NCBI RefSeq assembly: GCF_002869745.1
Contig: NZ_PNOS01000029.1
Location: forward strand, 1-63,321
DNA: 63,321 nucleotides
Source: Oceaniglobus roseus
GTDB lineage: Bacteria > Pseudomonadota > Alphaproteobacteria > Rhodobacterales > Rhodobacteraceae
Direction of reading: 5' to 3'
Each line of letters opens with the position of its first letter. Positions within the stretch are counted from its first letter, which is position 1. A model generated the notes under the pieces. The model was given only the letters and a program-made list of their open reading frames with translations, was not told where the DNA came from and ran no database searches. Position numbers and translations under genes: made by a program. Below, one piece after another: positions 31,892-52,972 of this stretch.

Positions 31892-32043
31892 GGCAGCGTC
31901 CCTTTCTAAATGCCTTGTTAACCAATTTGTGATCGCGCGATGTGGCCAGATCTGGGCGGAGTCCGGGTGCTTCCCGGACCATACCGGGGCGGTCGAAGGC
32001 GGGATTCCGGCATTCCGGGGCTGGACCCTGCGCGGGCAGTCGC

Positions 32044-35298: not shown

Positions 35299-38200
35299 AT
35301 GGCCCGCTTCTTCATCGACCGCCCGATCTTCGCCTGGGTCATCTCGCTGTTCATCTCCGGCCTCGGGATCCTGTCGATCCTGAACCTGCCGGTGGCGCAG
35401 TATCCCCAGATCGCCCCGCCCACCGTGACGATCAGCGCCGCCTATCCGGGCGCCTCGGCCGAGACGGTGGCCAACACCGTGACCCAGGTGATCGAGCAGC
35501 AGATGACCGGGCTCGACGGGTTGCGCTACATCTCGTCGAGTTCGACCTCGGCCGGGGGCGCCTCGATCACGCTGACCTTCGAGACGGGGACCGACGCCGA
35601 CATCGCCCAGGTGCAGGTGCAGAACAAGCTCTCGCAGGCGACGACGCTGCTGCCCGACGTCGTGCAGCGGCAGGGCGTGGCGGTGCGCAAGTCCTCGGCC
35701 GGGTTCCTTATGGTGGTCGGCCTGATCGGCGAATCCGGCGCCTACGACGCCACGGACCTTTCCGATTACCTCAGCTCCAACCTCGTGAACGAGATCAGCC
35801 GCGTCGACGGCGTGGGCAACGTGCAGGTGTTCGGCGCGCAGTACGCCATGCGCATCTGGCTCGATCCCTCGAAGCTTGCCGCGTTCAACCTGACGCCCTC
35901 GGACGTCGTGGCGGCGGTGTCGGAGGAGAACGCGCAGATCTCGGCCGGCGCCTTCGGGTCGCGCCCCGCGGTGGAGGGGCAGGAGCTGAACGCGACGATC
36001 ACCGCCCAGTCGCTGCTGAGGACGCCCGAGGACTTCCGCCAGATCGTGATCCGCGCCGAGACCGACGGCGGGCTCGTGCTGCTGAACGACGTGGCGCGGG
36101 TCGAGATCGGGGCCGAGAACTATTCCACCATCCCCCGCTTCAACCGCAACGCGGCCAGCGGCATGGCGATCTCGCTCGCCCCCGGGGCCAACGCGCTGGA
36201 CACCGCCAACGCCGTGAAGGCGCGGCTGGACGAGCTGGCGGCCTTCTTCCCCGAGGGCATGAGCTATGTCATTCCCTACGACACGACGCCGTTCGTGCTG
36301 ATCTCGATCGAGGAGGTGGTGAAGACCCTGTTCGAGGCGGTGGTGCTGGTCTTCCTCGTGATGTTCCTGTTCCTGCAGAACCTCCGCGCGACGATCATCC
36401 CCACCCTCGTCGTCCCGGTGGTGCTGCTCGGCACATTCGGAATCCTCGCCGCCGCGGGCTTCTCGATCAACTCGCTGACGATGCTCGCCATGGTGCTGGC
36501 GATCGGCCTTCTCGTCGACGACGCCATCGTGGTGGTCGAGAACGTCGAGCGGATCATGGAGGAGGAGGACGTCGGCCCGGTCGAGGCCACGCGCAAGTCG
36601 ATGGACGAGATCACCGGCGCGCTGATCGGCATCGCCGTGGTGCTGACGGCGGTGTTCGTGCCCATGGCCTTCTTCCCGGGCTCGACCGGCGTGATCTACA
36701 AGCAGTTCTCGATCACCATCATCTCGGCCATGGCGCTGTCGGTGGTGATGGCGCTGACGCTGACCCCGGCGCTCTGCGCGACGTTGCTGAAGCCGAAGAA
36801 GGGGCAGGCGCGGGGGCCGTTCCGCTGGTTCAACAGCGGCTTCGGCGCGACGACCCGGGGCTACGGCAAGTTCGTCGGCTGGATCGTGCGCCGCCCGGTC
36901 AGGAACGGCCTGTTCTACCTCGCCATCATCGCCGCGACGGTGTTCCTGTTCCTCAGGACGCCCGGCGGCTTCCTGCCCGACGAGGACCAGGGGATCCTGT
37001 TCACCCTGATCCAGACACCGACCGGCGCGACGGCGCAGCGCACGCTCGACGTCGTGCAGCGGGTCGAGGATTACTACCTGGACCAGGAGAGCGATGTCGT
37101 GACCTCGGTCTTCGGCGTCGCGGGCTTCAGCTTCGCAGGGCAGGGGCAGAACCAGGGCCTGGCCTTCGTGCGGCTGAAGGACTGGGACGAGCGGACGGAG
37201 CCGAGCCAGAGCGTGCAGGCGCTGGCCGGGCGCGCCTTCGGAGCGCTGAGCCAGATCCAGGACGCGATGGTGTTCCCGATCGTGCCGCCCTCGGTCAGCC
37301 AGCTCGGCAACGTCTCGGGCTTCGACTTCTACCTCCAGGCGCGGGGCGGCCAGACCCACGAGGAGCTTCTGGCGGCGCGAAACCAGCTTCTGGGAATGCT
37401 GGCGCAGAGCCCGAAGATCGCCTCCGCCCGGCCGAGCGGTCTGGAGGACGCGGCGCAGTTCAACCTCGACATCGACTGGCGGAAGGCGGGGGCCATGGGC
37501 GTCTCTGCCACCGATGTCGGCAACCTGCTGACCATCGGCTGGGCGGGCCGCTATGTGAACGACTTCATCGACCGCGGCCGGATCAAGCGCGTCTACGTCC
37601 AGGGCGAGGCCGAGGCGCGGGCCACGCCGTCGGACCTGGCCAAGTGGCGGGTGCGCAACGCGAGCGGCGGTCTCGTGCCCTTCTCCAACTTCGCCACGGC
37701 AGACTGGGTCTACGGGCCGCAGGGGGTGAACCGCTACAACGGCGTGCCGTCGATGCAGATCCAGGGCTCGCCCGCGCCCGGCGTCTCCTCGGGCGAGGCG
37801 CTGGCGGAGATCGAGCGGCTGGTGGCGCAGCTGCCCTCGGGCTTCCAGGCGGCCTTCACCGGGCTCTCGCTGGAGGAGCAGCAGAGCGGCAACCAGGCGC
37901 CGCTGCTCTATGCGCTGTCGCTCGCGGCGGTGTTCCTGGCGCTGGCCGCCCTCTACGAAAGCTGGTCGATCCCCTTCGCGGTGATGCTCGCCATGCCCAT
38001 CGGCGTGCTCGGCACGCTCTGCGCGGCCTATATCGGCAGCTTCGACAACGGCGTCTTCTTCCAGGTCGGCCTGCTGGTCGTGATCGGCCTGACCGGCAAG
38101 AACGCGATCCTGATCGTCGAGTTCGCGCGCGAGCAGCTGGAGGCCGGGGAACCGCTGTTCAAGGCGACCGTCCACGCGGCGCAGCAGCGGTTCCGCCCGA

Positions 38201-38439
38201 TCATCATGACCTCCATGGCCTTCTCGCTCGGGGTCGTTCCGCTGGTGCTAAGCTCGGGCGCGGGGTCGGGCGGGCGGCAGGCGATCGGTGCGGGGGTGCT
38301 GGGCGGCACGATCTCGGCCACCGTGCTCGGGGTGCTGCTGGTGCCGCTGTTCTTCGTCACCATCGCCCGTCTGACCGGCGCGGCGAAGGTGCGCGACGGC
38401 AACGACGGCAAGGCCCGGTCCGCGGCCGAACCCGCCTGA
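35299..38439 (+). CDS. RND multidrug efflux permease (HAE1 family)
   Basis: A 1046-residue inner-membrane transporter of normal AcrB length. N-terminus MARFFIDRPIFAWVISLFI is canonical. TM4 contains GLLVDDAIVVVENVERIM, the Asp-Asp proton relay. FFQVGLLVVIGLTGKNAILIVEFA marks the second half (quoted in part). The C-terminus ends with charged linker residues (KVRDGNDGKARSAAEPA). With the adaptor upstream it forms a tripartite pump; no outer-membrane channel gene is adjacent. Transcription ends at a 13-bp hairpin 34 bp downstream. Confidence 0.97.
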   Translation: MARFFIDRPIFAWVISLFISGLGILSILNLPVAQYPQIAPPTVTISAAYPGASAETVANTVTQVIEQQMTGLDGLRYISSSSTSAGGASITLTFETGTDADIAQVQVQNKLSQATTLLPDVVQRQGVAVRKSSAGFLMVVGLIGESGAYDATDLSDYLSSNLVNEISRVDGVGNVQVFGAQYAMRIWLDPSKLAAFNLTPSDVVAAVSEENAQISAGAFGSRPAVEGQELNATITAQSLLRTPEDFRQIVIRAETDGGLVLLNDVARVEIGAENYSTIPRFNRNAASGMAISLAPGANALDTANAVKARLDELAAFFPEGMSYVIPYDTTPFVLISIEEVVKTLFEAVVLVFLVMFLFLQNLRATIIPTLVVPVVLLGTFGILAAAGFSINSLTMLAMVLAIGLLVDDAIVVVENVERIMEEEDVGPVEATRKSMDEITGALIGIAVVLTAVFVPMAFFPGSTGVIYKQFSITIISAMALSVVMALTLTPALCATLLKPKKGQARGPFRWFNSGFGATTRGYGKFVGWIVRRPVRNGLFYLAIIAATVFLFLRTPGGFLPDEDQGILFTLIQTPTGATAQRTLDVVQRVEDYYLDQESDVVTSVFGVAGFSFAGQGQNQGLAFVRLKDWDERTEPSQSVQALAGRAFGALSQIQDAMVFPIVPPSVSQLGNVSGFDFYLQARGGQTHEELLAARNQLLGMLAQSPKIASARPSGLEDAAQFNLDIDWRKAGAMGVSATDVGNLLTIGWAGRYVNDFIDRGRIKRVYVQGEAEARATPSDLAKWRVRNASGGLVPFSNFATADWVYGPQGVNRYNGVPSMQIQGSPAPGVSSGEALAEIERLVAQLPSGFQAAFTGLSLEEQQSGNQAPLLYALSLAAVFLALAALYESWSIPFAVMLAMPIGVLGTLCAAYIGSFDNGVFFQVGLLVVIGLTGKNAILIVEFAREQLEAGEPLFKATVHAAQQRFRPIIMTSMAFSLGVVPLVLSSGAGSGGRQAIGAGVLGGTISATVLGVLLVPLFFVTIARLTGAAKVRDGNDGKARSAAEPA

Positions 38440-38565: not shown

Positions 38566-38596
38566 TTAACCGCGCCTAAAGAGTTCGCACCGATAA
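38566..38596 (+). promoter_or_regulatory. Possible flagellar-type promoter of chemotaxis cluster
   Basis: TTAA (38566), TAAA (38577) and ACCGATAA (38589-38596) lie 48 bp upstream of the Cache-sensor start. CCGATAA matches the -10 element of sigma-28 promoters, but the spacing from TAAA (8 bp) or TTAA (19 bp) does not fit the standard 15 bp. Confidence 0.3.
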
Positions 38597-38643: not shown

Positions 38644-39218
38644 ATGTTTTCCCGCCTCCGCAGTCTCTCGTTCGGTTTCACCTTCGCGCTGGCCGCTGCC
38701 CCCTTCAGGCGGCCGAGCCCGAGGCGATCGCCTTCGTGCGCAGCCAGCTTGCCACGCTCGCCGCCACGCCGGATGTCCTGGCGGCCGTCGCCGCCGGCAA
38801 CAACCGCCATGCCGCCATGGACGAGGCCGCGATCCTCGTCGCCGATGCCGAATGGCGGGCCGAGGTCGGGACCACCAACGACGGCATGATCACGGCGATG
38901 ACCGAGTCGCCGGCCTCGGCCGCGCTGCGCGCCATGGTCGAGGCTTCCAATGGCCAGATCACCGAGATCATCGTGATGGACAACAAGGGCATGAACGCCG
39001 CCATCAGCGCCGTCACCTCGGACTACTGGCAGGGCGACGAGGCGAAGTTCCAGGAGACCTACCCCAAGGGCGCCGCAGCCATCCACGTCGCCGAGATCGA
39101 GTTCGACGAATCCAGCCAGATCTACCAGCAGCAGATCTCCGTGACCCTGGTCGATCCCGCCCTCGGGCAGCCGGTCGGCGCCGTGACCTTCGGTCTCGAC
39201 GCCGGCGCTTTCTACTGA
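38644..39218 (+). pseudogene. Frameshifted secreted Cache-like sensor protein
   Basis: A start MFSRLRSLSFGFTFALAA at 38644 encodes a signal peptide in one frame. The rest (AAEPEAIAFVRSQLATLAATP, quoted in part, to the stop at 39218) is in another frame. Restoring one base at the CCCCC run (38699-38703) would give a single ~191-residue protein. The body has the periplasmic Cache/PDC pattern EIIVMDNKGMNAAIS and SDYWQGDEAKFQETYP. It has no TM helix after the signal, so would be a free periplasmic sensor. It precedes the MCP gene by 25 bp and probably delivers a ligand signal to it. Either a real frameshift or an assembly error. Confidence 0.7.
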
Positions 39219-39243
39219 GCCTGGACCGGAGGAGGGCCCGAAC

Positions 39244-41760
39244 ATGACGTCAACAGACAAGCTGCGACTGGGCGGTTCCATCGCCTTCAAGTTCGCGATC
39301 GCCGTGATCCTGTCCATCGCCGCGGTGGTCTTCATCATGGCATACCTGCACGGGCGCGATTTCGACAAGTTCACGGTCGAGGCCGTGTCGTCCGATGCGC
39401 GGGTGCAGGGACGGATGATGTCGGAGCTGCTGCCGGCCCCCGTCGCCTTCGACAAGGGGGACGCGGTGCAGGAGCTTGTCGATCAGTACGTGACGGCCTC
39501 CAACGGCAATTTCACCGATGTCCTGATCCTGAATGCCGAGGGGCAGCCGGTGGTGCGGCGCGGCGACGGCGCAGATGCGCTGATCGACTTCGGACGCACC
39601 GCGATCGGGGCCCAAGGGGCGGTCATCGACGACGATCAGCGCCTCGTGGCCTATCCGCTGACCTACGGCGCCGACCGGGTGGTCGGTTCCATGACGACCC
39701 GGTGGAGCACGGCGCGACTGCAGGACTTCTCGACAGATCTCGAGATGCGGGCGCTCGCGATCGCCGCCATCGTCGCGCTGATTGCCCTTGCGGCGACCTT
39801 CCTGGCCTTCCGCGCCCTGGTCCTGAAGCCGCTGGCCGCGCTCACCGGCAATGTCGACGCCTTGCGCCGTCGCGAGTACGACACCGCGATCGCGGGCCAG
39901 GCACGCGGCGACGAATTCGGCGTCCTCTCGCGCAGCGTGGACCATCTGCGCGAAGACCTCGCGGCCGCCGCCGTGGCCGGGCGCGAGGCCCGGTTCAAGA
40001 GCGAGGCGTTCAAGAACTCTTCCGCCGCCATGGTGCTCGCCGACGAGGCGGGCGAGATCTTTGCGGTCAACCCGTCCTTCGAGGCGCTCTGCAACAAGCA
40101 TGTCGACGAGTTCCGCAAGCGCTTCCCCGGCTTCGACGCCGCCGCGCTGGTCGGCAAGCCGCTGTCCTACTTCCATCCGCGCAGCAACCGCATGTTGGAT
40201 CTCACCCGCGACGGCGTCTCCTCCACGATCGCGATGGGCGACACACGGCTGGCGTTGAACATCCAGTCGATCGAGGATGCGGAGGGCCACCAGATCGGCT
40301 GCGTCCTGGAATGGCAGGACATCTCCGAGCAGTGGAAGGACATCGCGCTCATCGACGCGATCAACGTCACCCAGCTGCGCGCCGAATTCACGCCCGACGG
40401 TCGGCTGACCGCCGCCAACGACATCTTCGCCCGGACCATCGGCACCGGCGAGGGGGGCGGGCGCGGCATGACGCTGCGCAGCCTCTCGCCCGGCGATTGC
40501 GACGCCATCATTGCGCAGCTTGCGGAGAACAGCGCCTTCGTCGGCGAGATGAGGATGCGCAGCGTCACCGGCGCCGATCTGACCCTCGAGGGAAGCGTGA
40601 CCTCGGTGCAGGGGACCGACGGCAAGCCCTACCGGCTGTTCCTCCTCGGCCGCGACGTGACCGAGACCAAGGCCGAAGCCGAACGCATCCGGGCCGAGCG
40701 CGACGAAAGCGATCGCGAGCGTGCCGATGTCGTCGCCGCGCTTCAGGTCGGGTTGAAGCGTCTGAGTGACGGCGATCTTCGCGCCGTTCTGCCGACCCCC
40801 TTCGCCGCCCGCTACGAGGAACTGCGGGAGGACTACAACCGTGCGGTGGAACGGCTCTGCGAGGCGCTGAGCGGCATCGCCGAGCGGGCGGAGACCATTC
40901 GCAGCGAGTCCCAGGACATCAGCGGCACCGCGGAAACCCTGTCGCGGCGTACGGAGAGCACGGCGGCGACCCTGGAACAGGCGGCCGCGGCGCTCGACGC
41001 CCTGACCGGTGCGGTGCGCGGCGCCGCCGAGAGCGCCCAGAAGGCCGACACCATGGTGACGGAGGCGAAATCCAACGCCGAGGCCAGCGGCCAGGTGGTG
41101 TTGAAGACCGTCTCGGCCATGGACGAGATCGCGACCTCGTCCGAAAAGGTCGCCTCGATCATCAAGGTGATCGACGACATCGCCTTCCAGACCAACCTGC
41201 TGGCGCTGAACGCCGGGGTCGAGGCGGCCCGGGCCGGCGAGGCAGGACGCGGCTTCGCTGTCGTCGCCTCGGAGGTCCGTGCGCTGGCACAGCGCTCTTC
41301 CGAAGCCGCGCGCGAGATCAACGGCCTGATCGCCGCCTCCGGGGCGCAGGTCAAGGTCGGCGTCGACCTGGTCGGAGAGACCGGCCAGGCGCTGCGCCGC
41401 ATCGTTGCCTCGGTCAGCGAGATCTCCGGCCAGGTTTCGGAGATCGCGGGCTCTGCGAAGCAGCAGGCGCTGACACTGGAAGAGATCAACTCGTCGGTGA
41501 ACCAGCTCGACCAGTCGACCCAGCAGAACGCGGCGCGCCTGGAAGAGACCACCGCGGCCAGTGACGCGCTGCGCAGCGAGGCGGTGTCGCTGGTCGAGAC
41601 GATCGGACACTTCAGGCTTTCCGAGAAGGTCGTACAGATGCCGACGAAGAAGCCGCGCCAGGCCGCACCGTCCCGTCCGTCAAGGCCGGCCTCCGACACG
41701 GCGCGAGAGGGCAGCGAGGGCAACATCGGCGTCGCCACTGGCACCTGGACGGATTTCTGA
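39244..41760 (+). CDS. Methyl-accepting chemotaxis protein with two PAS-like domains
   Basis: An 838-residue chemoreceptor. TM1 lies at about residues 13-32 and TM2 at about 167-195, enclosing a ~135-residue periplasmic domain. A HAMP segment follows ([23 protein letters not shown]). Residues ~245-370 and ~375-485 are PAS-like ([21 protein letters not shown]). The signalling hairpin reads [33 protein letters not shown], the highly conserved MCP tip, quoted in two parts. The C-terminus ends in TWTDF, matching xWxxF, the CheR/CheB tethering pentapeptide. It is the receptor of the cluster that follows. Confidence 0.93.
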
Positions 41761-41805
41761 GATGGGTCGCGGCGCGCCGGATCGGCGAACAGGGAAAGGC
41801 AGCAC

Positions 41806-42354
41806 ATGGCGGTGATCGAACCCCGACTGCGCGACACCGGGCAGGAAAGGGAACTCCTGGTGCTGCAGGGCGAGTTCCGGGTCAGCGGCGACCCTTCGGT
41901 CGTGCTGACGACCCTTCTTGGCTCCTGCGTCGCGACCTGCCTCTTCGACCCGGTGGCCCGGGTCGGCGGCATGAACCACTTCCTCCTCGCCGCCGGTCCC
42001 GAGGGGATCGCGCCGTCGGAACGCTATGGCTTCTACGCCATGGAGGTGCTGATCAACGGCCTTCTCAAGCTCGGGGCGAGGAAGCCGCGCATGGAGGCGA
42101 AACTGTTCGGAGGGGCCACCATGGGGGGGCGCATGGGGCACATCGGCGAGGAGAACGGACGTTTTGCCCTGGGCTTCCTGACCGCCGAAGGCATCCCCTG
42201 CCGCTCGATGAGCCTTGGCGGCAGCCAGGCCCGGCGGTTGCGCTACTACCCCACGACCGGCCGCGTGAGCCAGAGGCTGGTGGACCGGATCGACCGCGAG
42301 GAGGTGCCGGTCCGGTCCCCGCGGGCGAGCGATGTCCAGTTCTTCGAGGAGTGA
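41806..42354 (+). CDS. cheD: Chemoreceptor glutamine deamidase CheD
   Basis: A 182-residue enzyme that converts Gln to Glu at receptor methylation sites. The catalytic triad residues line up: Thr35 and Cys41 in LTTLLGSCVATCLFDP and His58 in GGMNHFLLA, with the same Cys-His spacing (17) as the characterised CheD. KLFGGATMGGRMGHIGEENGR is the second signature, shown here only partly as KLFGGATMGGRM. It follows the MCP gene by 45 bp and precedes the STAS gene, in the che operon. Confidence 0.97.
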   Translation: MAVIEPRLRDTGQERELLVLQGEFRVSGDPSVVLTTLLGSCVATCLFDPVARVGGMNHFLLAAGPEGIAPSERYGFYAMEVLINGLLKLGARKPRMEAKLFGGATMGGRMGHIGEENGRFALGFLTAEGIPCRSMSLGGSQARRLRYYPTTGRVSQRLVDRIDREEVPVRSPRASDVQFFEE

Positions 42355-42358
42355 GACG

Positions 42359-42634
42359 ATGAGTGCCGAAATCGTACTGGCAGAGAGACTGCCGTCGTCC
42401 GCCGTGGAAGACATGCGCCGCAGCCTTCGTGCCGCAACCGGTCCGGCGGCACGGATCGACGGCCGCCACGTCCGCTCGATCGGGGCCCGCGCCGCCGAGA
42501 CGCTTGCCCGCTTCGCCGCCGCGGCGCGGGGCGAAGGGCGCAGCGTCACGGTCCGGGTCTCGCGCGACATGGAGGACGACCTGCGCATCCTCGGCCTTGC
42601 GGCCGCGGTTCTTGGAGAGGAAATCGCCCAATGA
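42359..42634 (+). CDS. STAS-domain protein of the che operon
   Basis: A 91-residue single-domain protein resembling anti-sigma-factor antagonists (STAS): an alpha/beta fold with a start MSAEIVLAERLPSSAVEDM and a segment HVRSIGARAAETLARFAAAARGEG at the position where phospho-acceptor Ser/Thr normally sits; here it reads VRSIGA. GAGGAG lies upstream of the ATG. Its stop overlaps cheY (ATGA 42631-42634). Similar small STAS genes precede cheY in Rhodobacter-type che operons (for example orf10 of cheOp1, from memory). Role in the pathway unknown. Confidence 0.75.
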   Translation: MSAEIVLAERLPSSAVEDMRRSLRAATGPAARIDGRHVRSIGARAAETLARFAAAARGEGRSVTVRVSRDMEDDLRILGLAAAVLGEEIAQ

Positions 42635-42999
42635 ATATTCGCGTTCTTGCGATCGACGATTCGCGCACGATGCGCGATCTCCTGCGTGCGGCGCTGGAGA
42701 AGGCCGGGTTCTGGGTGGCCACGGCCGAGGACGGGGCCGAGGCGGTCGAGCAGCTGGAAGCCGCGGCGCCCGATGTCATCATCACCGACATCAACATGCC
42801 CCGTCTCGACGGCTTCGGCGTGATCGAGGCGGTGCGCGGCTCCCGTTGCGCCGCCACGGTGCCGATCCTCGTGCTCAGCACCGAAAGCAGCCCCGAGATG
42901 AAGAATCGCGCCCGGATGAGCGGGGCCACCGGCTGGATCGTCAAGCCGTTCGACGACGCGCGGCTCATCTCGGCCATCCGCCGGGTTGCAAGGGTCTGA
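42631..42999 (+). CDS. cheY: Response regulator CheY (first copy)
   Basis: A 122-residue single receiver domain. The acidic pair is Asp9/Asp10, the phospho-acceptor is Asp53 (IITDINMPRLDG), Thr84 lies in LVLSTESS and Lys105 in IVKPFDD. All five switch residues are in place. It overlaps the STAS gene by 4 bp and is followed at 4 bp by cheA. It carries the phosphoryl group from CheA to the flagellar motor or acts as a sink; which cannot be told from sequence. Confidence 0.96.
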   Translation: MNIRVLAIDDSRTMRDLLRAALEKAGFWVATAEDGAEAVEQLEAAAPDVIITDINMPRLDGFGVIEAVRGSRCAATVPILVLSTESSPEMKNRARMSGATGWIVKPFDDARLISAIRRVARV

Positions 43000-43003
43000 C
43001 GAC

Positions 43004-45230
43004 ATGGCAAGTCTCAGCGAAATCCGCCAGCTTTTCTTCGTCGAATGCGAGGAGCAGCTCGAGCAGCTCACCGACGGGCTGAACGCGATCGAGGCGCTGC
43101 CGCCGGGCGCCGACCCCGATGCCGAGACGGTGAACCAGATGTTCCGCGCGGTGCATTCGATGGAGGGGGGGCGCCGCGTCCTTCTCCCTCGACGGGATCA
43201 CCCGGTTCGCCCATGCCTTCGAGACGATCCTCGACGAGGTGCGCAGCGGCAAGCTGCACCTGACCCCCGAGATCCTGCGCGTCTTCTACCGCGCGGCGGA
43301 TCGGCTGGCCGACCTCGTCGCGCTGGGCGCCGATGACGAGATGTGGGACGAACCTGCGCTGCGCCGCCAGATCGACGAGATCCTCGCCCTGTCCTGCGCA
43401 GCCGAGCCGGCTGCGGCCTCACCGGCCTCGCCGGACGACTCCGGAGATGCGGCCGCCGACGGTGATCTCCTGGCACAGTTCACCCCGACGGCGCTGGACT
43501 TCTCCTTCGTTCCGCCGGGGCAGGAGGCTGCGGCGTTCCGGCGCCACCGGATCACCTTCGCACCAACGGCCGAGCTGTTCGCAAACGGGCACGAGCCGGT
43601 CCATCTGTTCCGGGAACTCGCGGCCCTGGGAGAGCTGAACGTCGAGGCGCAGCTGGACGCCGCCGCAGCCTGGGACGCCGATGCGCCTGCCATAGTCTGG
43701 ACCCTGACGCTCGACACGGCTCAGACGCGGACCGAGATCCAGGAGATCTTCGAGTTTGCCGAACCCTTCGCGGAAATCCGGATCGAGGAGGACGGCCACG
43801 ACCCGGCGGGGACGGAGTCCGGCACTTCCGGCTCCGATGCCCTTGCGCCGGAGAGGGCGCCCGCGCCGGGGGCCATGGCCGACATCGCGTCCAACGACCC
43901 AGTGCCGATCGATATGCAACCGCTCTCGACCGGCCCCGCCGGACCCGCGAGGGGAACGGAGCAGGTCGATGCGCCACAGGGCGCTGCGGACCGGGCGCAG
44001 CCCGACAAGGCGGTCAAGACGGGTTCCCGGGCGACCGTCCGGGTCGACCTCGAACTTGTCGACGCCCTGATCAACATGGTCGGCGAACTGGTCATCACGC
44101 AGTCGGTCATGAACCAGTCCATCGTCGAGGCCGGCCTCGCGAGCGACCGGCGCATGGCGTCGACCCTCGAGGAATTCCGCACCCTGACCCGGCAGATCCA
44201 GGAAGGGGTGATGGCGATCCGCGCCCAGTCGGTGAAACCGCTGTTCCAGCGGATGGGCCGCATTGTCCGCGAGACCGCCCAGATCGCCGAGAAGAACGTG
44301 CGGTTCGTCACCGAGGGGGAGGACACCGAGGTCGACCGCACGGTGATCGAGCGTCTGGTGGATCCGCTGACGCACATCCTGCGCAACGCCATCGACCACG
44401 GGCTGGAGCATGCGGAGCGTCGCCGGGCGGCCGGCAAGGATCCCACCGGCACCGTCACGCTTTCGGCGGCGCACCGGTCGGGTCGCGTCGTGATCGAGGT
44501 CAAGGACGACGGCGGCGGCGTCGACCGCGACAAGGTCCTGGCCTCGGCGATCGCAAAGGGGCTGGTGCCCGCGAACGCGAACCTTTCTCCCGCCGAAATC
44601 GACCGCCTGCTGTTCACGCCCGGCTTCTCCACCGCGAGCAAAGTGACCAACCTGTCGGGGCGCGGCGTCGGCATGGACGTGGTCAACAACGAGATCCGCA
44701 GCCTCGGCGGCCGGGTGGCAATCATCTCGGAACCGGGTCAGGGGACGACGATCTCGATCAGCCTGCCGCTGACCCTCGCGGTGCTCGACGGCATGATCGT
44801 CGACGTCGGCGGGCAGACCATGGTCGTACCGATCTCGGCGATCGTCGAAACCATCCGGCCGCAACCGTCGCAACTGCACTGGATCGGCCCGGAGGCGCGG
44901 ATGATCTCGGTGCGCGACCTGATGATTCCCGTCATCGACCTGGCCGCTGTCTTCGATTACGCCGGCGGGTCCGGCGCGCTGGAACGCGAAGGCGTGCTGC
45001 TGCTGGTGGAGAACGATCGCGGCGAACAGCGGGCGCTGGCGGTGGACCGGATCCATGACCAGCGCCAGGTGGTCATCAAGAGCCTCGAGTCCAATTACGG
45101 CCATGTGCCTTATGTCGCCGCGGCCACGATCCTCGGAGACGGCCAGATCGCCCTGATCGTGGACCTCGACGAGATCACGCAGGGGACGCCCGCCCTGCCG
45201 ACCCCACCGCAAGCGAGGAAATCCGCATGA
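43004..45230 (+). pseudogene. cheA: CheA histidine kinase with poly-G frameshift in HPt domain
   Basis: From the ATG at 43004 the frame encodes the HPt domain (phospho-His51, RAVHSMEGG) and breaks at a GGGGGGG run (43165-43171). Removing one G gives a 741-residue CheA. The downstream frame continues with the rest of P1 (FSLDGITRFAHAFETILDEV), a linker, then dimerisation (LELVDALINMVGELVITQSVM), the HATPase (HILRNAIDHGLE, GRGVGMDVV) and the CheW-like domain to 45230. All are otherwise intact. As written, the protein would stop after ~110 residues, or a P1-truncated form could start at GTG 43239. Sequencing error, phase variation and true loss are all possible. Confidence 0.8.
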
Positions 45231-45700
45231 TCCACGAGAACGATCCGGCGCGGGCCGGCAAGCACGAGCTGATCACCTTTTCCGTCGGGCAGCAGGATTT
45301 CTGCATGGACATCATGCTGGTGCGCGAGATCCGCGGCTGGACCAACGTGACCGTCCTGCCGCATTCGCCCGCAGACGTGCTGGGGGTGATGAACCTGCGC
45401 GGCGCCGTGGTGCCGATCGTCGACCTTTCGGCGCGTCTCGGGCTCGGGGCCTGCCGACCCGAAGCGCGCAACGTCATCATCATCGCGCTGATCGGTCGGC
45501 AGACCGTCGGCTTCCTTGTCACCGCCGTGTCCGACATCGTGAGCGCCGCTCCCGAGGACATCCAGCCGCTGCCCCAGGTCGGCGGGACCGCAGCCGGGAA
45601 TTACGTGAAGGGTATCATCGCGTCGCGCCACCAGACGCTCCGGGTGCTGAACATCGACATGCTGGCCGCGGCCATCACCGAGGAGTCGGAAGTCGCATGA
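45227..45700 (+). CDS. cheW: Chemotaxis adaptor CheW
   Basis: A 157-residue SH3-like scaffold joining CheA to receptors. Patterns are ITFSVGQQDFCMDIMLVREIRGW, VLPHSPADVLGVMNLRGAVVPIVDL (quoted in part) and IIIALIGRQTVGFLVTAVSDIV. It overlaps cheA and cheR by ATGA each. It has normal length and is complete, unlike the neighbouring cheA. Confidence 0.97.
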   Translation: MIHENDPARAGKHELITFSVGQQDFCMDIMLVREIRGWTNVTVLPHSPADVLGVMNLRGAVVPIVDLSARLGLGACRPEARNVIIIALIGRQTVGFLVTAVSDIVSAAPEDIQPLPQVGGTAAGNYVKGIIASRHQTLRVLNIDMLAAAITEESEVA

Positions 45701-46593
45701 CCGGCGCGGCACTGTCCACACCCGCGGCGGGGACGGATTTTCCCCTGTCGGACGCGCAGTTCGAAAGGATCGGACGGATCATGCGCCTGCAAAGCGGCAT
45801 CTGCCTGGCCGACGGGGCGCAGAAACTGGTTGTGTCGCGGCTTTCCAAGCATCTCAAGCGGCTCGGGCTTCCGGGCTTCGAAGCCTATCTGGACTTCGTC
45901 ACTGGCCCCCAGGGGGCCGAGGAACAGAAGCGGATGATCGACGCGCTGACCACCAACACCACGCGGTTCTTCCGCGAGGAGGGCCATTTCCGCCTGCTCG
46001 AGACCGGGCAGATGCCGCGGCTGATCCGCAAGGCGCGGGAGGGCGGCCGGGTGCGGCTGTGGTCGGCCGCCTGTTCCAGCGGCGAGGAACCCTACAGCAT
46101 GGCAGCGACCGTGCTGCGGGCCTTCCCCGACGCCGGACAGCACGATTTCCGCATCCTCGCGACAGACATCAACACGGCGATGCTGACCCGGGCGAAGGCC
46201 GCGATCTATGCGGCGGAAGCGGCGCGAGACGTGCCGGCGGACCTGGCCCGCCTCATGTTCGAACCGGGCCCCGGCCCCTCGCAGGTGCGCGTCCGCCAGC
46301 CCCTGCGCGACCTCGTCTCGTTCCGCTACCTCAACTTCATGGAGCCTTGGCCCGTGCGCGGCCCGTTCGACGCGATCTTCTGCCGCAACGTGACGATCTA
46401 CATGGAGCCGGAAATCCAGATGCGGATCTGGACCGGGCTCGAACGGGTCCTGGACGAGGAGGGCAGTCTCTTCATCGGTCATTCCGAACGGATCGGCCCC
46501 AGCCTTGCCGACCGTCTGGAGCTCTACGGGCCGACGTCGTTCCGCCGTCCCGGAAGCCGGCCGACTTCCACGCAGTCCAGAATTGGAGCCTAG
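45697..46593 (+). CDS. cheR: Chemoreceptor methyltransferase CheR
   Basis: A 298-residue SAM-dependent enzyme methylating receptor Glu residues. An N-terminal helical domain comes first, then LWSAACSSGEEPYSMA (motif I) and FDAIFCRNVTIYM (motif IV). A beta-subdomain for pentapeptide binding appears present between ILATDIN and FRYLNF. The receptor upstream ends in TWTDF, the kind of tether CheR binds. There is no cheB in the cluster. Starts with ATGA overlap to cheW. Confidence 0.97.
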   Translation: MTGAALSTPAAGTDFPLSDAQFERIGRIMRLQSGICLADGAQKLVVSRLSKHLKRLGLPGFEAYLDFVTGPQGAEEQKRMIDALTTNTTRFFREEGHFRLLETGQMPRLIRKAREGGRVRLWSAACSSGEEPYSMAATVLRAFPDAGQHDFRILATDINTAMLTRAKAAIYAAEAARDVPADLARLMFEPGPGPSQVRVRQPLRDLVSFRYLNFMEPWPVRGPFDAIFCRNVTIYMEPEIQMRIWTGLERVLDEEGSLFIGHSERIGPSLADRLELYGPTSFRRPGSRPTSTQSRIGA

Positions 46594-46595
46594 CC

Positions 46596-46982
46596 ATGTC
46601 CCTTCGTGATACCCTCCAGGTTCTCGTCGTCGACGACACCAGCGTCAGCCGGGGTCTCGTCTGCATGTCGCTCGAGGAGATCGGGATCAAGAACGTCGAC
46701 TTCTGCAAATCCGGCGACGAAGCCTTCGACATCGCAACCCGCCGCGGCGTGCATGTGGTCATCTCGGACCAGAATATGCCCGGGCTGACGGGGATCCAGC
46801 TGCTGGAGAAACTCAGGATGCAGAAGGCGACGTCGCGCATCGGCTTCATCCTGATCAGCGGCTCGATGAACCAGCAGCTGCTGGATTCGGCGCGCAAGTG
46901 GGGGCTGAACAACTTCCTGTCCAAACCCTTCGACACGCCCAAACTGAAGACCTGTCTCGAGACCGTGACGGGGCCGCTGTGA
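46596..46982 (+). CDS. cheY: Response regulator CheY (second copy)
   Basis: A 128-residue single receiver domain: Asp13/Asp14, phospho-acceptor Asp58 (VISDQNMPGLTG), Ser88 at the Thr position and Lys110 (FLSKPFD). It is divergent from the first CheY in the operon (different alpha-4/beta-5 surface, GSMNQQLLDSARKWG), so the two probably have separate targets. Two CheY genes flanking cheA-cheW-cheR is the Rhodobacter cheOp1 pattern, from memory. GTGA overlap with the next small gene. Confidence 0.95.
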   Translation: MSLRDTLQVLVVDDTSVSRGLVCMSLEEIGIKNVDFCKSGDEAFDIATRRGVHVVISDQNMPGLTGIQLLEKLRMQKATSRIGFILISGSMNQQLLDSARKWGLNNFLSKPFDTPKLKTCLETVTGPL

Positions 46983-47317
46983 TCGCCCCCGATCCGACGC
47001 TGTCCGAGGTACTGAACCGTCTGGGCCGGGAACTGGCACGGGTCGAGGACATGGGCCTCAGGCTCGAGGACAGCGTGGCGGAACTGGTGTCCGGCACGGC
47101 CGACGCGGCGCCGTCCTCGTTGCAGACGCTGGACCTGATGGTGCAGACCTGCCGCGATCTCAAGTGCTTCGCCCTGCACATGGCCGAAACAATGCCGAGG
47201 TGTGGTGCGCCGGAGCTTGAGGAGTCGCTGCGCGTGGTGCGCCTGGCCCGCGTGCGGCAGGCGCTGTCCGGCCACTTTGCCGACCAGGAGGAGGAGCGGG
47301 ACGCGCACATCTTCTGA
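46979..47317 (+). CDS. Small helical protein with CheZ-like DxxxQ motif
   Basis: A 112-residue all-helical protein, last in the che operon, start GTG overlapping the second cheY stop (GTGA). It contains SSLQTLDLMVQTCRDL, in which Asp52 and Gln56 form D-x-x-x-Q, the spacing of the catalytic Asp/Gln in CheZ (QDLTGQ region). N-terminal segment LNRLGRELARVEDMGLRLEDSV could form the other arm of a hairpin. CheZ itself is longer (~214 residues) and mainly gammaproteobacterial; small CheZ-like proteins (for example CheT) are known in alphaproteobacteria. Phosphatase activity towards a CheY is a hypothesis. Confidence 0.7.
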   Translation: MIAPDPTLSEVLNRLGRELARVEDMGLRLEDSVAELVSGTADAAPSSLQTLDLMVQTCRDLKCFALHMAETMPRCGAPELEESLRVVRLARVRQALSGHFADQEEERDAHIF

Positions 47318-50083: not shown

Positions 50084-50167
50084 GGATCCCCGCTGCTGTC
50101 ATCTTTGCGTCTGATTCAGGTATGACTTGGGTATGTGCAATTCGATCCCAAGCTCAAGGCCCGTTCC

Positions 50168-52972
50168 ATGACCTTCGCCGCCCGCATGACCCGCTGCCCC
50201 CGTCCCTTCGAAACGGACCGTCGTCCCGAGGCCGCGCCCCTCGAAGCGCTCGCGCCGGAGCTGGCTGACCTGTTGGAAGGTGCGGCGGGATGCAGCCCGT
50301 TCCTGAAGGGCGCGATGGAGCGCGAGGCGGAGTGGCTGGCCGAGGCGCTGTCGGTCGCGCCCGAGGCGGCCTTCGCGGGGATCCTCGACGACATGCAGGC
50401 GCTGGAGGACGGGCAGCTGGCGGCGGGGCTGCGGGTGGCGAAGCGGCGGACGGCGCTGCTGACGGGGCTTGCGGACCTGGCCGGGGTCTGGCGCCTGGAA
50501 GAGGTCACGGGGGCGCTGACCGCCTTCGCCGACCTCGCGGTCGCGCGGGCGCTGGCCTCGACCGTCGCGGCCGAGATCCGGCGGAAGAAGCTGCCGGGGC
50601 TGACGGAGGACGACATCGCCACCGCGGGCGGCATGGTGGTGCTGGCCATGGGCAAGATGGGGGCGGGGGAGCTGAACTATTCCTCCGACATCGACCTGAT
50701 CTGCCTCTTCGACGAAAGCCGCTTCGATCCGGCCGAGCTGATGACCGCCCGTGCCGGGTTCGTGCGCGCGACCCAGCGGATGTGCGCGCTGCTCTCGGAC
50801 CGCAGCGCCGAGGGCTATGTCTTCCGCACCGACCTTCGGCTGCGCCCCGATCCTTCGGTCACGCCGGTCTGCGTCGGCATGGAGGCGGCCGAGCGGTATT
50901 ACGAAAGCCTCGGGCGGACCTGGGAGCGGGCGGCGCATATCAAGGCGCGGCCCTCTGCCGGAGACGTCATCGCCGGGGAAGCCTATCTTGAACGGCTCCG
51001 CCCCTTCATCTGGCGGCGTCATCTGGACTTCGCGGCGATCAAGGATGCCCACGACATGCGGCTGAGGATCCGCGCCCACAAGGGGTTGAACGGCCGACCG
51101 GCGCTGGAGGGCTACGACCTGAAGCTCGGGCGGGGCGGCATCCGCGAGATCGAGTTCTTCACCCAGACCCGGCAGATCATCGCGGGCGGGCGCGACCCCT
51201 CGCTCCGCGTCCGCGGCACCTGCGAGGGGCTCGACCGGCTGGTGGCGGCGGGCTGGGTGCAGGGCGGGACGGCCGAACAGCTGAAGGCGGATTACGTCGA
51301 ACACCGGACAGTCGAGCACCGGGTGCAGATGGTGAACGACGCCCAGACCCACGCCCTGCCGCAGGACGGCGAGGGGTTCGCGCGGCTTGCCGCGATGATG
51401 GACCGCGACACCGAAGCCCTGCGCGACGAGATCGAGGCGCGGCTCGAGCGGGTGGCGGGCCTGACCGAGCCGTTCTTCGATCCCGCCCACGAGTCCCGCG
51501 ACGGGCAGGAGCCTTCGGAGCCGCCCGAACTGGACGAGAAGCAGGCGGCGATCGTCGCCCGCTGGCGCGGCTATCCGGCGCTGCGGTCGCAACGCGCGCA
51601 GGAGATCTTCGACCGGCTGCGCCCCGACCTGCTGGCCCGCCTCTCCGAAAGCGCCGACCCCGAGCAGGCGCTGCTGCACCTCGACGGCTTCCTTGCCGGG
51701 CTGCCCGCCGGGGTGCAGCTGTTCTCGCTCTTCGAGGCCAATCCGCAGCTGATCGACCTGATCGTCGACATCGCCGACACCGCGCCGGACCTCGCGCGGT
51801 TCCTGTCGCGCAATGCCGGGGTGTTCGACGCGGTGATCGGCGGCACCTTCTTTACCCCCTGGCCCGGGCCCGAGGCGTTGCGGGAGGACCTGGAGGCGCG
51901 GCTGGCCGATGCCGCCGACTACGAGGCGCGGCTGGACCTGGCGCGGGCCTGGGCGAAGGAGTGGAAGTTCCGCATCGGCGTCCACCACCTGCGCGGGCTG
52001 ATCGGGGCCGATGCGGCGGGGCGGCAGTATGCCGATGTCGCCGACGCGGTGCTGGGCGTTCTCTGGCCGCTGGTCGGCGCGCATTTCGCCGAACGCCACG
52101 GCGCGGCGCCGGGGCGGGGGGCGATGGTGCTGGGCATGGGCTCGCTCGGTGCGGGGCGGCTGAATGCGGCCTCGGACCTGGACCTGATCGTGATCTACGA
52201 CGCCGACGGGGTCGAGGCGAGCGAGGGCAAGCGGCCGCTGGCCTCGCGCCTCTATTATGCCCGGCTGACGCAGGCGCTGGTCACGGCCCTGTCGGCCGCG
52301 ATGGCCGAGGGCAAGCTCTACGAGGTCGACATGCGGCTGCGCCCGTCGGGGCGGCAGGGGCCGGTGGCGACCGCGCTCCCGGCCTTCCGCACCTACCAGC
52401 GCGAGGAGGCCTGGACCTGGGAGCACCTGGCCCTGACCCGCGCGCGGGCCGTGGCCGGGGCGGCAGAGCTGTGTGACGCGGTCGAGTCGTTCCGGCTGGA
52501 GCTGCTGGCCGCACCCCGCGAGGCCGCGCCGGTGCTGAAGGACGTCGCCGACATGCGCGACCGGCTGGCGGCGGCGCAGGGCGCCTCGGGGCCGTTTGAC
52601 GCCAAGGCGGGACCGGGGCGGTTGCAGGACATCGAACTGGCGGCCTCGGCGGCGGCGCTGCTGGCGGGCTGTCCGTCACGGGCGGTGCCCGAACAGCTCG
52701 AGGCAGGGGCGGCGGCGGGCGTGCTGCCGGCCCACGTGGCGCAGGACCTGGCCGAGGCGCACGGTGCCTTCTGGCGGCTTCACGCGGCGGCGCGGCTGCT
52801 GAGCCCAGGGCGGCTCGCGCCCGACCACCTGGGCGCGGGGGGCGCTGCGCTCCTGCTGCGCGACAGCGGGGCGGAGACGCTGGAGGAACTGGCGGCGGCC
52901 ATGGCGGAATTGGCCGGGAAGGCGGCGGCCCATGTCGCGGAAATGCTTGGCAGCGCGGCCGACAGGGCCTAA
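50168..52972 (+). CDS. glnE: Glutamine synthetase adenylyltransferase/deadenylylase
   Basis: A 934-residue bifunctional enzyme that adenylylates GlnA at its Tyr and reverses it, under PII control. Two nucleotidyltransferase domains: MGKMGAGELNYSSDIDLICL (about residues 158-177) and MGSLGAGRLNAASDLDLIVIY (about 655), quoted in part. A regulatory helical domain lies between. Its length matches the family. The ATG at 50168 was chosen over GTG 50135 for its AAGG spacing. Monocistronic here; convergent context downstream. Confidence 0.97.
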   Translation: MTFAARMTRCPRPFETDRRPEAAPLEALAPELADLLEGAAGCSPFLKGAMEREAEWLAEALSVAPEAAFAGILDDMQALEDGQLAAGLRVAKRRTALLTGLADLAGVWRLEEVTGALTAFADLAVARALASTVAAEIRRKKLPGLTEDDIATAGGMVVLAMGKMGAGELNYSSDIDLICLFDESRFDPAELMTARAGFVRATQRMCALLSDRSAEGYVFRTDLRLRPDPSVTPVCVGMEAAERYYESLGRTWERAAHIKARPSAGDVIAGEAYLERLRPFIWRRHLDFAAIKDAHDMRLRIRAHKGLNGRPALEGYDLKLGRGGIREIEFFTQTRQIIAGGRDPSLRVRGTCEGLDRLVAAGWVQGGTAEQLKADYVEHRTVEHRVQMVNDAQTHALPQDGEGFARLAAMMDRDTEALRDEIEARLERVAGLTEPFFDPAHESRDGQEPSEPPELDEKQAAIVARWRGYPALRSQRAQEIFDRLRPDLLARLSESADPEQALLHLDGFLAGLPAGVQLFSLFEANPQLIDLIVDIADTAPDLARFLSRNAGVFDAVIGGTFFTPWPGPEALREDLEARLADAADYEARLDLARAWAKEWKFRIGVHHLRGLIGADAAGRQYADVADAVLGVLWPLVGAHFAERHGAAPGRGAMVLGMGSLGAGRLNAASDLDLIVIYDADGVEASEGKRPLASRLYYARLTQALVTALSAAMAEGKLYEVDMRLRPSGRQGPVATALPAFRTYQREEAWTWEHLALTRARAVAGAAELCDAVESFRLELLAAPREAAPVLKDVADMRDRLAAAQGASGPFDAKAGPGRLQDIELAASAAALLAGCPSRAVPEQLEAGAAAGVLPAHVAQDLAEAHGAFWRLHAAARLLSPGRLAPDHLGAGGAALLLRDSGAETLEELAAAMAELAGKAAAHVAEMLGSAADRA

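Follow-up and report, generated by a model that had tools for sequence, protein, structure and literature searches.

Textbook chemotaxis memory is provided by adaptation in which CheR acts against CheB. The locus described here, a chemotaxis operon at positions 38644-47317 of a 63,321-nucleotide stretch of the Oceaniglobus roseus genome (+ strand; hereinafter the window, the genome itself, coded G000, comprising 4.41 Mb in 87 contigs), raises the question of how such a system would operate when CheR and CheD are kept and no chemotaxis CheB is found, and what a free Cache-domain protein does directly in front of a gene for a methyl-accepting chemotaxis protein (MCP). The proposed split Cache receptor and the lack of a chemotaxis CheB are the two points of interest of this system. 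We hold, with moderate confidence, that it is a cheOp1-type operon with a two-part, double-Cache receptor, from which cheB was lost and in which the receptor is demodified by CheD or in a manner uncoupled from CheA.

Organization of the operon and its relation to known systems

Reading frames and profile searches identified ten chemotaxis genes, all on the + strand and in the very order given by a previous reading made without database searches (the sequence-only reading), preceded by a putative regulatory site:

38566-38580, + strand: CtrA-type box TTAA-N7-TAAA, 63 bases before the sensor start; presumed promoter element of the operon
38644-38735, + strand: sensor gene, signal-peptide part, in a frame different from that of the mature domain (the leader is intact in relatives)
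38736-39218, + strand: free periplasmic Cache-domain protein, mature part
39244-41760, + strand: MCP chemoreceptor, consisting of a transmembrane (TM) segment, sCache periplasmic domain, TM segment, HAMP, PAS regions and MCPsignal; C-terminal GTWTDF
41746-41757, + strand: WTDF, the xWxxF tail of the MCP
41806-42354, + strand: cheD (PF03975, E 2.5e-21)
about 42359-42634, + strand: cheS-like STAS protein (PF13466, STAS_2); the first ATG of the frame is at 42332
42631-42999, + strand: cheY1 (PF00072)
43004-45230, + strand: cheA, whole span
43004-43171, + strand: cheA, histidine phosphotransfer (HPt) part until the frame change (PF01627, E 6.9e-6)
43173-45230, + strand: cheA, remainder (H-kinase_dim, HATPase_c, CheW-like)
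45227-45700, + strand: cheW (PF01584)
45697-46593, + strand: cheR (PF01739 and PF03705)
46596-46982, + strand: cheY2 (PF00072)
46979-47317, + strand: cheT-like gene for a CheZ-type DxxxQ protein (NF047973, below cut-off)

From cheD through the last gene, successive stops and starts overlap or almost abut; for the DxxxQ-protein gene, GTG 46979 (112 amino acids) is a more probable start than 46898. The same cluster order was met again in related genomes and is therefore not due to chance. In a tree of MCP plus CheD (20 rows), Palleronia salina and P. pelagia have the operons closest to that of the window (support 100). Genes for FliF and MotA were detected, so that flagellar parts are encoded in the genome, which further contains CheA, CheD and a stand-alone CheR once each and two MCPs; CheB is found only inside a CheB-CheR fusion.

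The resemblance to Rhodobacter cheOp1 that had been pointed out by the sequence-only reading holds in gene order and in the cheB-free gene list. The window carries cheD, the STAS gene, cheY, cheA, cheW, cheR and cheY in one operon from which cheB is absent; cheOp1 of R. sphaeroides (Fla2), as excerpted from PMC7277832, is activated by CtrA and comprises MCP genes, cheD, cheX, cheY, cheW, cheR and cheY without cheB, although this list is possibly incomplete because it also omits cheA1. The two systems differ in that the cheB1 and cheB2 genes of R. sphaeroides lie in other operons (same excerpt), whereas no stand-alone CheB was found here, and in that the operon of the window is led by the free Cache gene; in genomes G051 and G091, the same operon order occurs without the sensor gene. 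According to the excerpted text of PMC2829493, R. sphaeroides CheA1 phosphorylates neither CheB1 nor CheB2 in vitro.

The operon is probably CtrA-driven, a lead provided by the putative box. When up to one mismatch to TTAAN7TTAA was allowed, two sites were found in the 63-kb window against 0.14 expected (the other one lies at 31907-31921). Among 15 upstream regions of same-order operons, each of 330 bases and with that of Solirhodobacter included, 12 contain such a box (shuffles: mean 0.54, largest 4); none was found in the 330-base region of Tabrizicola aquatica. The box occupies a fixed position range in 10 of the 15 regions compared with 21 of 120 other sensor genes, 34 of which have a box anywhere in the upstream region. 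Its placement upstream of the sensor start suggests that the sensor gene is probably the first of the operon. In Phaeobacter, che genes are under CtrA control (PMC12363192).

The terminal protein, which the sequence-only reading had counted among the least described parts of the operon, turned out to resemble a described one, and so did the STAS protein. As far as the excerpt of PMC12654446 goes, CheS of Sinorhizobium and Agrobacterium binds CheA and aids discrimination between two CheYs, in S. meliloti favouring dephosphorylation of CheY1, and CheT is a CheZ-like protein that dephosphorylates one CheY and binds CheR, with a role in termination in S. meliloti. The STAS protein of the window (29.5 bits against PF13466, cut-off 29.2) resembles CheS in its single STAS domain and in its slot directly before cheY-cheA, which is common across the family. 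The DxxxQ protein has the motif of CheT and its place at the end of a che operon, and in the QxxDxxxQ motif the Q, D and Q are invariant in 86 of 86 aligned rows (a few genomes being entered twice). Its match to the NCBIfam CheT model NF047973 (E 6.1e-7, 29.5 bits) is below the cut-off of 200, and we therefore name it CheT-like instead of filing it as a CheT equivalog; the last proteins of three relatives yielded 25.3, 16.8 and no match. The che clusters of Sinorhizobium and Agrobacterium are thus alike in CheS, the DxxxQ protein CheT, two CheYs and CheD; the Agrobacterium cluster differs in having cheB, and a free Cache protein goes unmentioned in the excerpt (PMC12654446). After addition of the best-scoring 80 of 119 CheA places, 87 family loci with CheA were examined altogether; STAS, CheY, CheW, CheR and CheT are jointly present at 69 of them, so this core is ordinary for the family, and incompleteness concerns chiefly CheT (14 of 87 loci), partly on account of contig ends. 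In three core operons, cheR is missing from its usual place (L149 of G187, L186 of G085 and L196 of G125), and searches of the G125 genome gave no CheR, CheB or CheD match.

CheB in the genome and the family, and the candidate role of CheD

No cheB was found inside the cluster, and the genome search proposed by the sequence-only reading extends this result, for stand-alone CheB, to the whole genome: the sole match to the CheB profile PF01339 in 4.41 Mb falls in a 1426-amino-acid frame that also carries CheR. A CheB as in E. coli-type CheR/CheB adaptation, in which a receiver is joined to the methylesterase, is thus not part of the inventory, which includes a CheB-CheR fusion only. A second copy of the cluster flanked by cheB is absent as well, because the genome has only one CheA.

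To place this genome in its family, 198 genomes were tallied, for CheB with Pfam PF01339: 93 have CheA, 101 CheB, 109 CheR and 80 CheD. The trio of CheA, CheR and CheD occurs in 78 genomes, and seven of these lack a PF01339 match, namely G003 (single contig), G005, G092, G103, G118 (84% completeness), G128 and G137. Three more (G000, G006 and G063) apparently have CheB-CheR fusions only, among the matches listed; this assignment follows the domains in G000 and the presence of CheB and CheR in one frame in G006, and in G063 only one of two matches could be so placed. In the CheA tree, the same-order genomes G000, G006, G137, G092 and G128 form one group (Shimodaira-Hasegawa-like approximate likelihood-ratio support 99) with no CheB-bearing row. 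Eight changes are needed for the 13 CheB-less rows of this tree, at least four of them forced by starred branches; G091, coded as CheB-bearing in the tree groups, was left out of the final change count.

The 14 same-order genomes (five from the family set and nine named) give a consistent picture, a catalytic CheB profile having found cheB in the operon in none of them. A PF01339 match is wholly absent in five (G092, G128, G137, Roseivivax lentus and Tabrizicola aquatica), and in another five the CheB frames are fused or of fusion length only (G000, G006, P. salina, called by length alone, and P. pelagia and Heliomarina, whose frames are broken). In the other four, P. abyssalis, P. marisminoris, Tranquillimonas and R. 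jejudonensis, CheB belongs to another operon that includes a CheA of its own. Among 80 named loci, a CheB domain occurs in that of Solirhodobacter olei alone, where a short cheB, apparently without a receiver, lies between mcp and cheD (L289:1373-2296; the contig stops after cheY). This slot is likely the ancestral place of cheB, and the locus a step in its loss. Short CheB frames were also seen in G135, G171 and G187.

CheD would be the candidate demodifying enzyme. The window CheD carries Thr, Cys and His, which we take to be the catalytic set of this protein. In an alignment of 65 rows, Cys and His are present in 65/65 each; at the Thr place, T, S and A occur, with T in 35 or 60 of the 65 rows depending on which neighbouring column is read. 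The WTDF tail of the operon MCP is presumably a CheR tether of the xWxxF type; 34 of 35 long-class partner MCPs have a W in the corresponding position. The second MCP of the genome (at G000:C9) ends without a tether, which the operon MCP alone possesses, and methylation-type EE/EQ sites are kept in both.

The most plausible of the alternatives, although doubtful, is that methyl groups are not removed at all: CheR would act once, and adaptation would proceed through CheD binding and, on the phosphate side, through CheS and CheT. In its favour, CheT of S. meliloti binds CheR and acts in termination (excerpt of PMC12654446), CheD binding as such increases kinase activation in B. subtilis (excerpt of PMC3513319), and the Solirhodobacter CheB seemingly lacks a receiver. 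One-way methylation would be odd, however, because CheR, its tether and the methylation-type sites of both MCPs have all been retained.

The free Cache protein and its proposed partner receptor

The proposal of the sequence-only reading that the separate periplasmic protein and the MCP form a two-part receptor gained support from their shared fold, co-conservation and co-divergence. Short forms of the sensor have a hydrophobic leader in 110 of 114 cases and a second TM segment in 0 of 114; with a leader only, the free protein does not belong to the membrane-anchored sensors. The operon MCP has two TM segments flanking a periplasmic domain of ~140 residues and a PF00015 signalling domain (E 4.7e-50). 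Although Pfam Cache models gave no match to the free protein of the window, among 56 of its relatives dCache_1 was matched by four, MCP-like_PDC_1 (first PDC) by three and sCache_3_2 by one. Structure prediction gave Cache (PDC) folds for the free protein as well as for the periplasmic domain of the MCP, and the two are linked by a profile match (probability 79, E 1.6e-5).

Pairing was assessed in two sets that share some genomes. Of 57 family copies of the sensor gene, 39 are followed directly by an MCP gene, as is the sensor gene at 63 of 80 named loci, so that the co-occurrence test suggested by the sequence-only reading revealed conservation of the sensor gene together with MCPs. CheA is present in 50 of 53 genomes with the sensor compared with 43 of 145 without it (p 2e-17). 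Co-divergence of the sensor is stronger with the periplasmic domain of the MCP (r 0.62) than with its signalling domain (r 0.31), and, inside the classes and with CheA as a control, the partial r for the periplasmic domain runs from 0.45 to 0.63 (p 0.001). A PAS-rich, long MCP as in the window, which the sequence-only reading had made part of the two-part receptor, is not required for pairing, because most partner MCPs are short (58 short and 35 long among 93 pairs). These observations suggest that the free Cache protein and the MCP may constitute a two-part double-Cache receptor.

The second alternative, which we consider rather unlikely, is that the free Cache protein, instead of being a receptor subunit, works on its own as a periplasmic binding protein, a scavenger or carrier merely co-transcribed with an MCP for the same nutrient. 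The minority of sensor copies without a nearby MCP would fit this possibility, as would the better conservation of the free protein compared with the partner domain (mean column identity 56% vs 32%). However, no transporter family was recognized in eight downstream frames scanned at MCP-less loci (thiolase, kynureninase, protein kinase, PilJ twice and three without a match), the sensor co-diverges with the periplasmic domain of the MCP above the signalling domain, and the sensor gene is placed upstream of and on the same strand as the MCP gene.

Six of the 18 MCP-less family sensor genes are long forms with further domains. Long secreted-looking forms with no MCP beside them (frames of 475-576 amino acids) were observed at L079, L089, L101, L110, L113 and L116; the only two scanned with Pfam (L079 and L110) have two PilJ domains each, and one of the genes that follow at L079 and L101 encodes another double-PilJ protein. 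At L213, L218, L221 and L238 (Sulfitobacter and uncultured Roseobacter), the sensor gene is divergent beside a STAS-first che operon and the MCP is not adjoining.

Receptors with soluble partners are known from other systems, the maltose-binding protein with Tar being a soluble periplasmic protein that feeds a membrane receptor. The binding-protein-dependent chemoreceptors resemble the pair described here in having a soluble periplasmic partner of a membrane receptor, but here the soluble part is a Cache domain, the receptor's own fold, and no transporter partner was seen. YycH, the partner of WalK, is presumably membrane-anchored and, unlike the protein in question, not a Cache domain. With this difference, the WalK-YycH pair (entry 9a5d) is similar in that an extracytoplasmic protein joins the sCache domain of a receptor. 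In Rhodopseudomonas, a stand-alone Cache protein has been predicted to cooperate with a membrane receptor, but that receptor is a homologue of ligand-gated ion channels (in a predicted operon), not an MCP, and the case comes from one bacterium (excerpt of PMC549065). In the open-licence literature, we recognized no study on a pair formed by an MCP and a free Cache protein.

Frame breaks and a scheme for the operon

Several observations weigh against the reading favoured here. A CheB match is present in 71 of the 78 family genomes with CheA, CheR and CheD. The window CheD scores 87 bits against the NCBIfam model for CheD methylesterase (cut-off 240), and this activity is, as we presume from an NCBIfam name, attributed to CheD of Thermotoga alone. 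No MCP adjoins the sensor gene in 18 of 57 family copies and at 17 of 80 named loci, and genes that are adjacent and inherited together co-diverge regardless. The 330 upstream bases scanned in P. salina and P. pelagia, which are closest to the window, contain no CtrA-type box. Finally, two genes are broken as sequenced, both breaks having been missed by the sequence-only reading: in the sensor gene, a frame shift at the C run 38699-38703 severs signal peptide and mature domain, and in cheA the frame shifts at a G run (43165-43171) situated at the box of the phosphorylated histidine (H-box). The end branch of the window CheA in the CheA tree is also long (1.44 vs median 0.54).

These breaks lead to a third alternative, that the system is decaying in this strain, with both frame shifts and the missing cheB as stages of loss. 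Besides the two broken genes and the long CheA branch, this possibility draws on the altered H-box, which reads HSMEGG: a loose H-box pattern is matched by 82 of 85 family CheA rows, all as HS[IV]KG, with three rows, that of the window included, unmatched in the frame used, and the substitutions exceed what homopolymer error alone explains. Furthermore, two of the four other same-order genomes of the family set are broken too (CheA of G006 at L083 and CheR of G137 at L062), and in G183, of the same genus, matches for CheA, CheD and the sensor are all absent. Nevertheless, decay appears unlikely. Both breaks fall in homopolymers, as is typical of assembly errors, and both genes are intact in Palleronia. 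The window CheA is 70% identical to that of P. salina over 54 residues before the break and 64% just after it, within the 37-75% of the other operon genes; MCP plus CheD are on a short end branch (0.41 vs median 0.81); and CheA and CheR are in single frames in all nine further named loci of this order (without recounting G137 and G128). We consider decay less likely than an error of assembly or a very recent change.

Finally, it is improbable that the CheB-CheR fusion encoded elsewhere in the genome performs the task of CheB in trans: such fusions exist in G000 and G006, but in five same-order genomes PF01339 is matched nowhere, and the fusion is a poor stand-in because CheA-less genomes hold CheB too (a CheB domain in 17 of 105, many in long frames; G183 has a CheB domain and a 1065-amino-acid CheR frame) and because the CheB-CheR chimera of Phaeobacter inhibens is not co-regulated with che genes, remaining unchanged in CtrA-relay mutants in which these go down up to 32-fold (excerpt of PMC12363192).

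In the neighbourhood of the operon, large + strand frames precede it (35299-38439) and follow it (50135-52972), resembling, by eye only, a resistance-nodulation-division (RND) efflux pump and GlnE, respectively. Three candidate matches were dropped, to lysozyme (E 0.78), to the BP39L lectin (far under cut-off) and to DUF6507 (under cut-off).

Under the cheOp1-type reading with a two-part receptor, the secreted single-Cache protein would dock on the sCache domain of the MCP or pass ligand to it, the pair acting like a double-Cache sensor, and the signal would reach CheA by way of HAMP and PAS. Partitioning of phosphate between CheY1 and CheY2 may fall to the CheS-like protein and its removal to the CheT-like protein, while CheR, tethered at the WTDF tail, would methylate the receptor. 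As cheB, probably once located between mcp and cheD, would have been lost in this lineage, demodification might be performed by CheD (a deamidase and possibly also a methylesterase) or might not be coupled to CheA.

It is possible, and we put it forward tentatively, that this operon stands for a family of chemoreceptors built as split double-Cache sensors, with CheD in the place of CheB as demodifying enzyme, contact of CheT with CheR tying adaptation to signal termination, and repeated loss of cheB while CheR and CheD persisted. With CheR and CheD present, chemotaxis CheB missing and only two receptors in the genome, the organism offers a small natural test of CheB-free adaptation, and the pair of genes for the free Cache protein and the MCP makes the assembly of a receptor from two parts directly testable.

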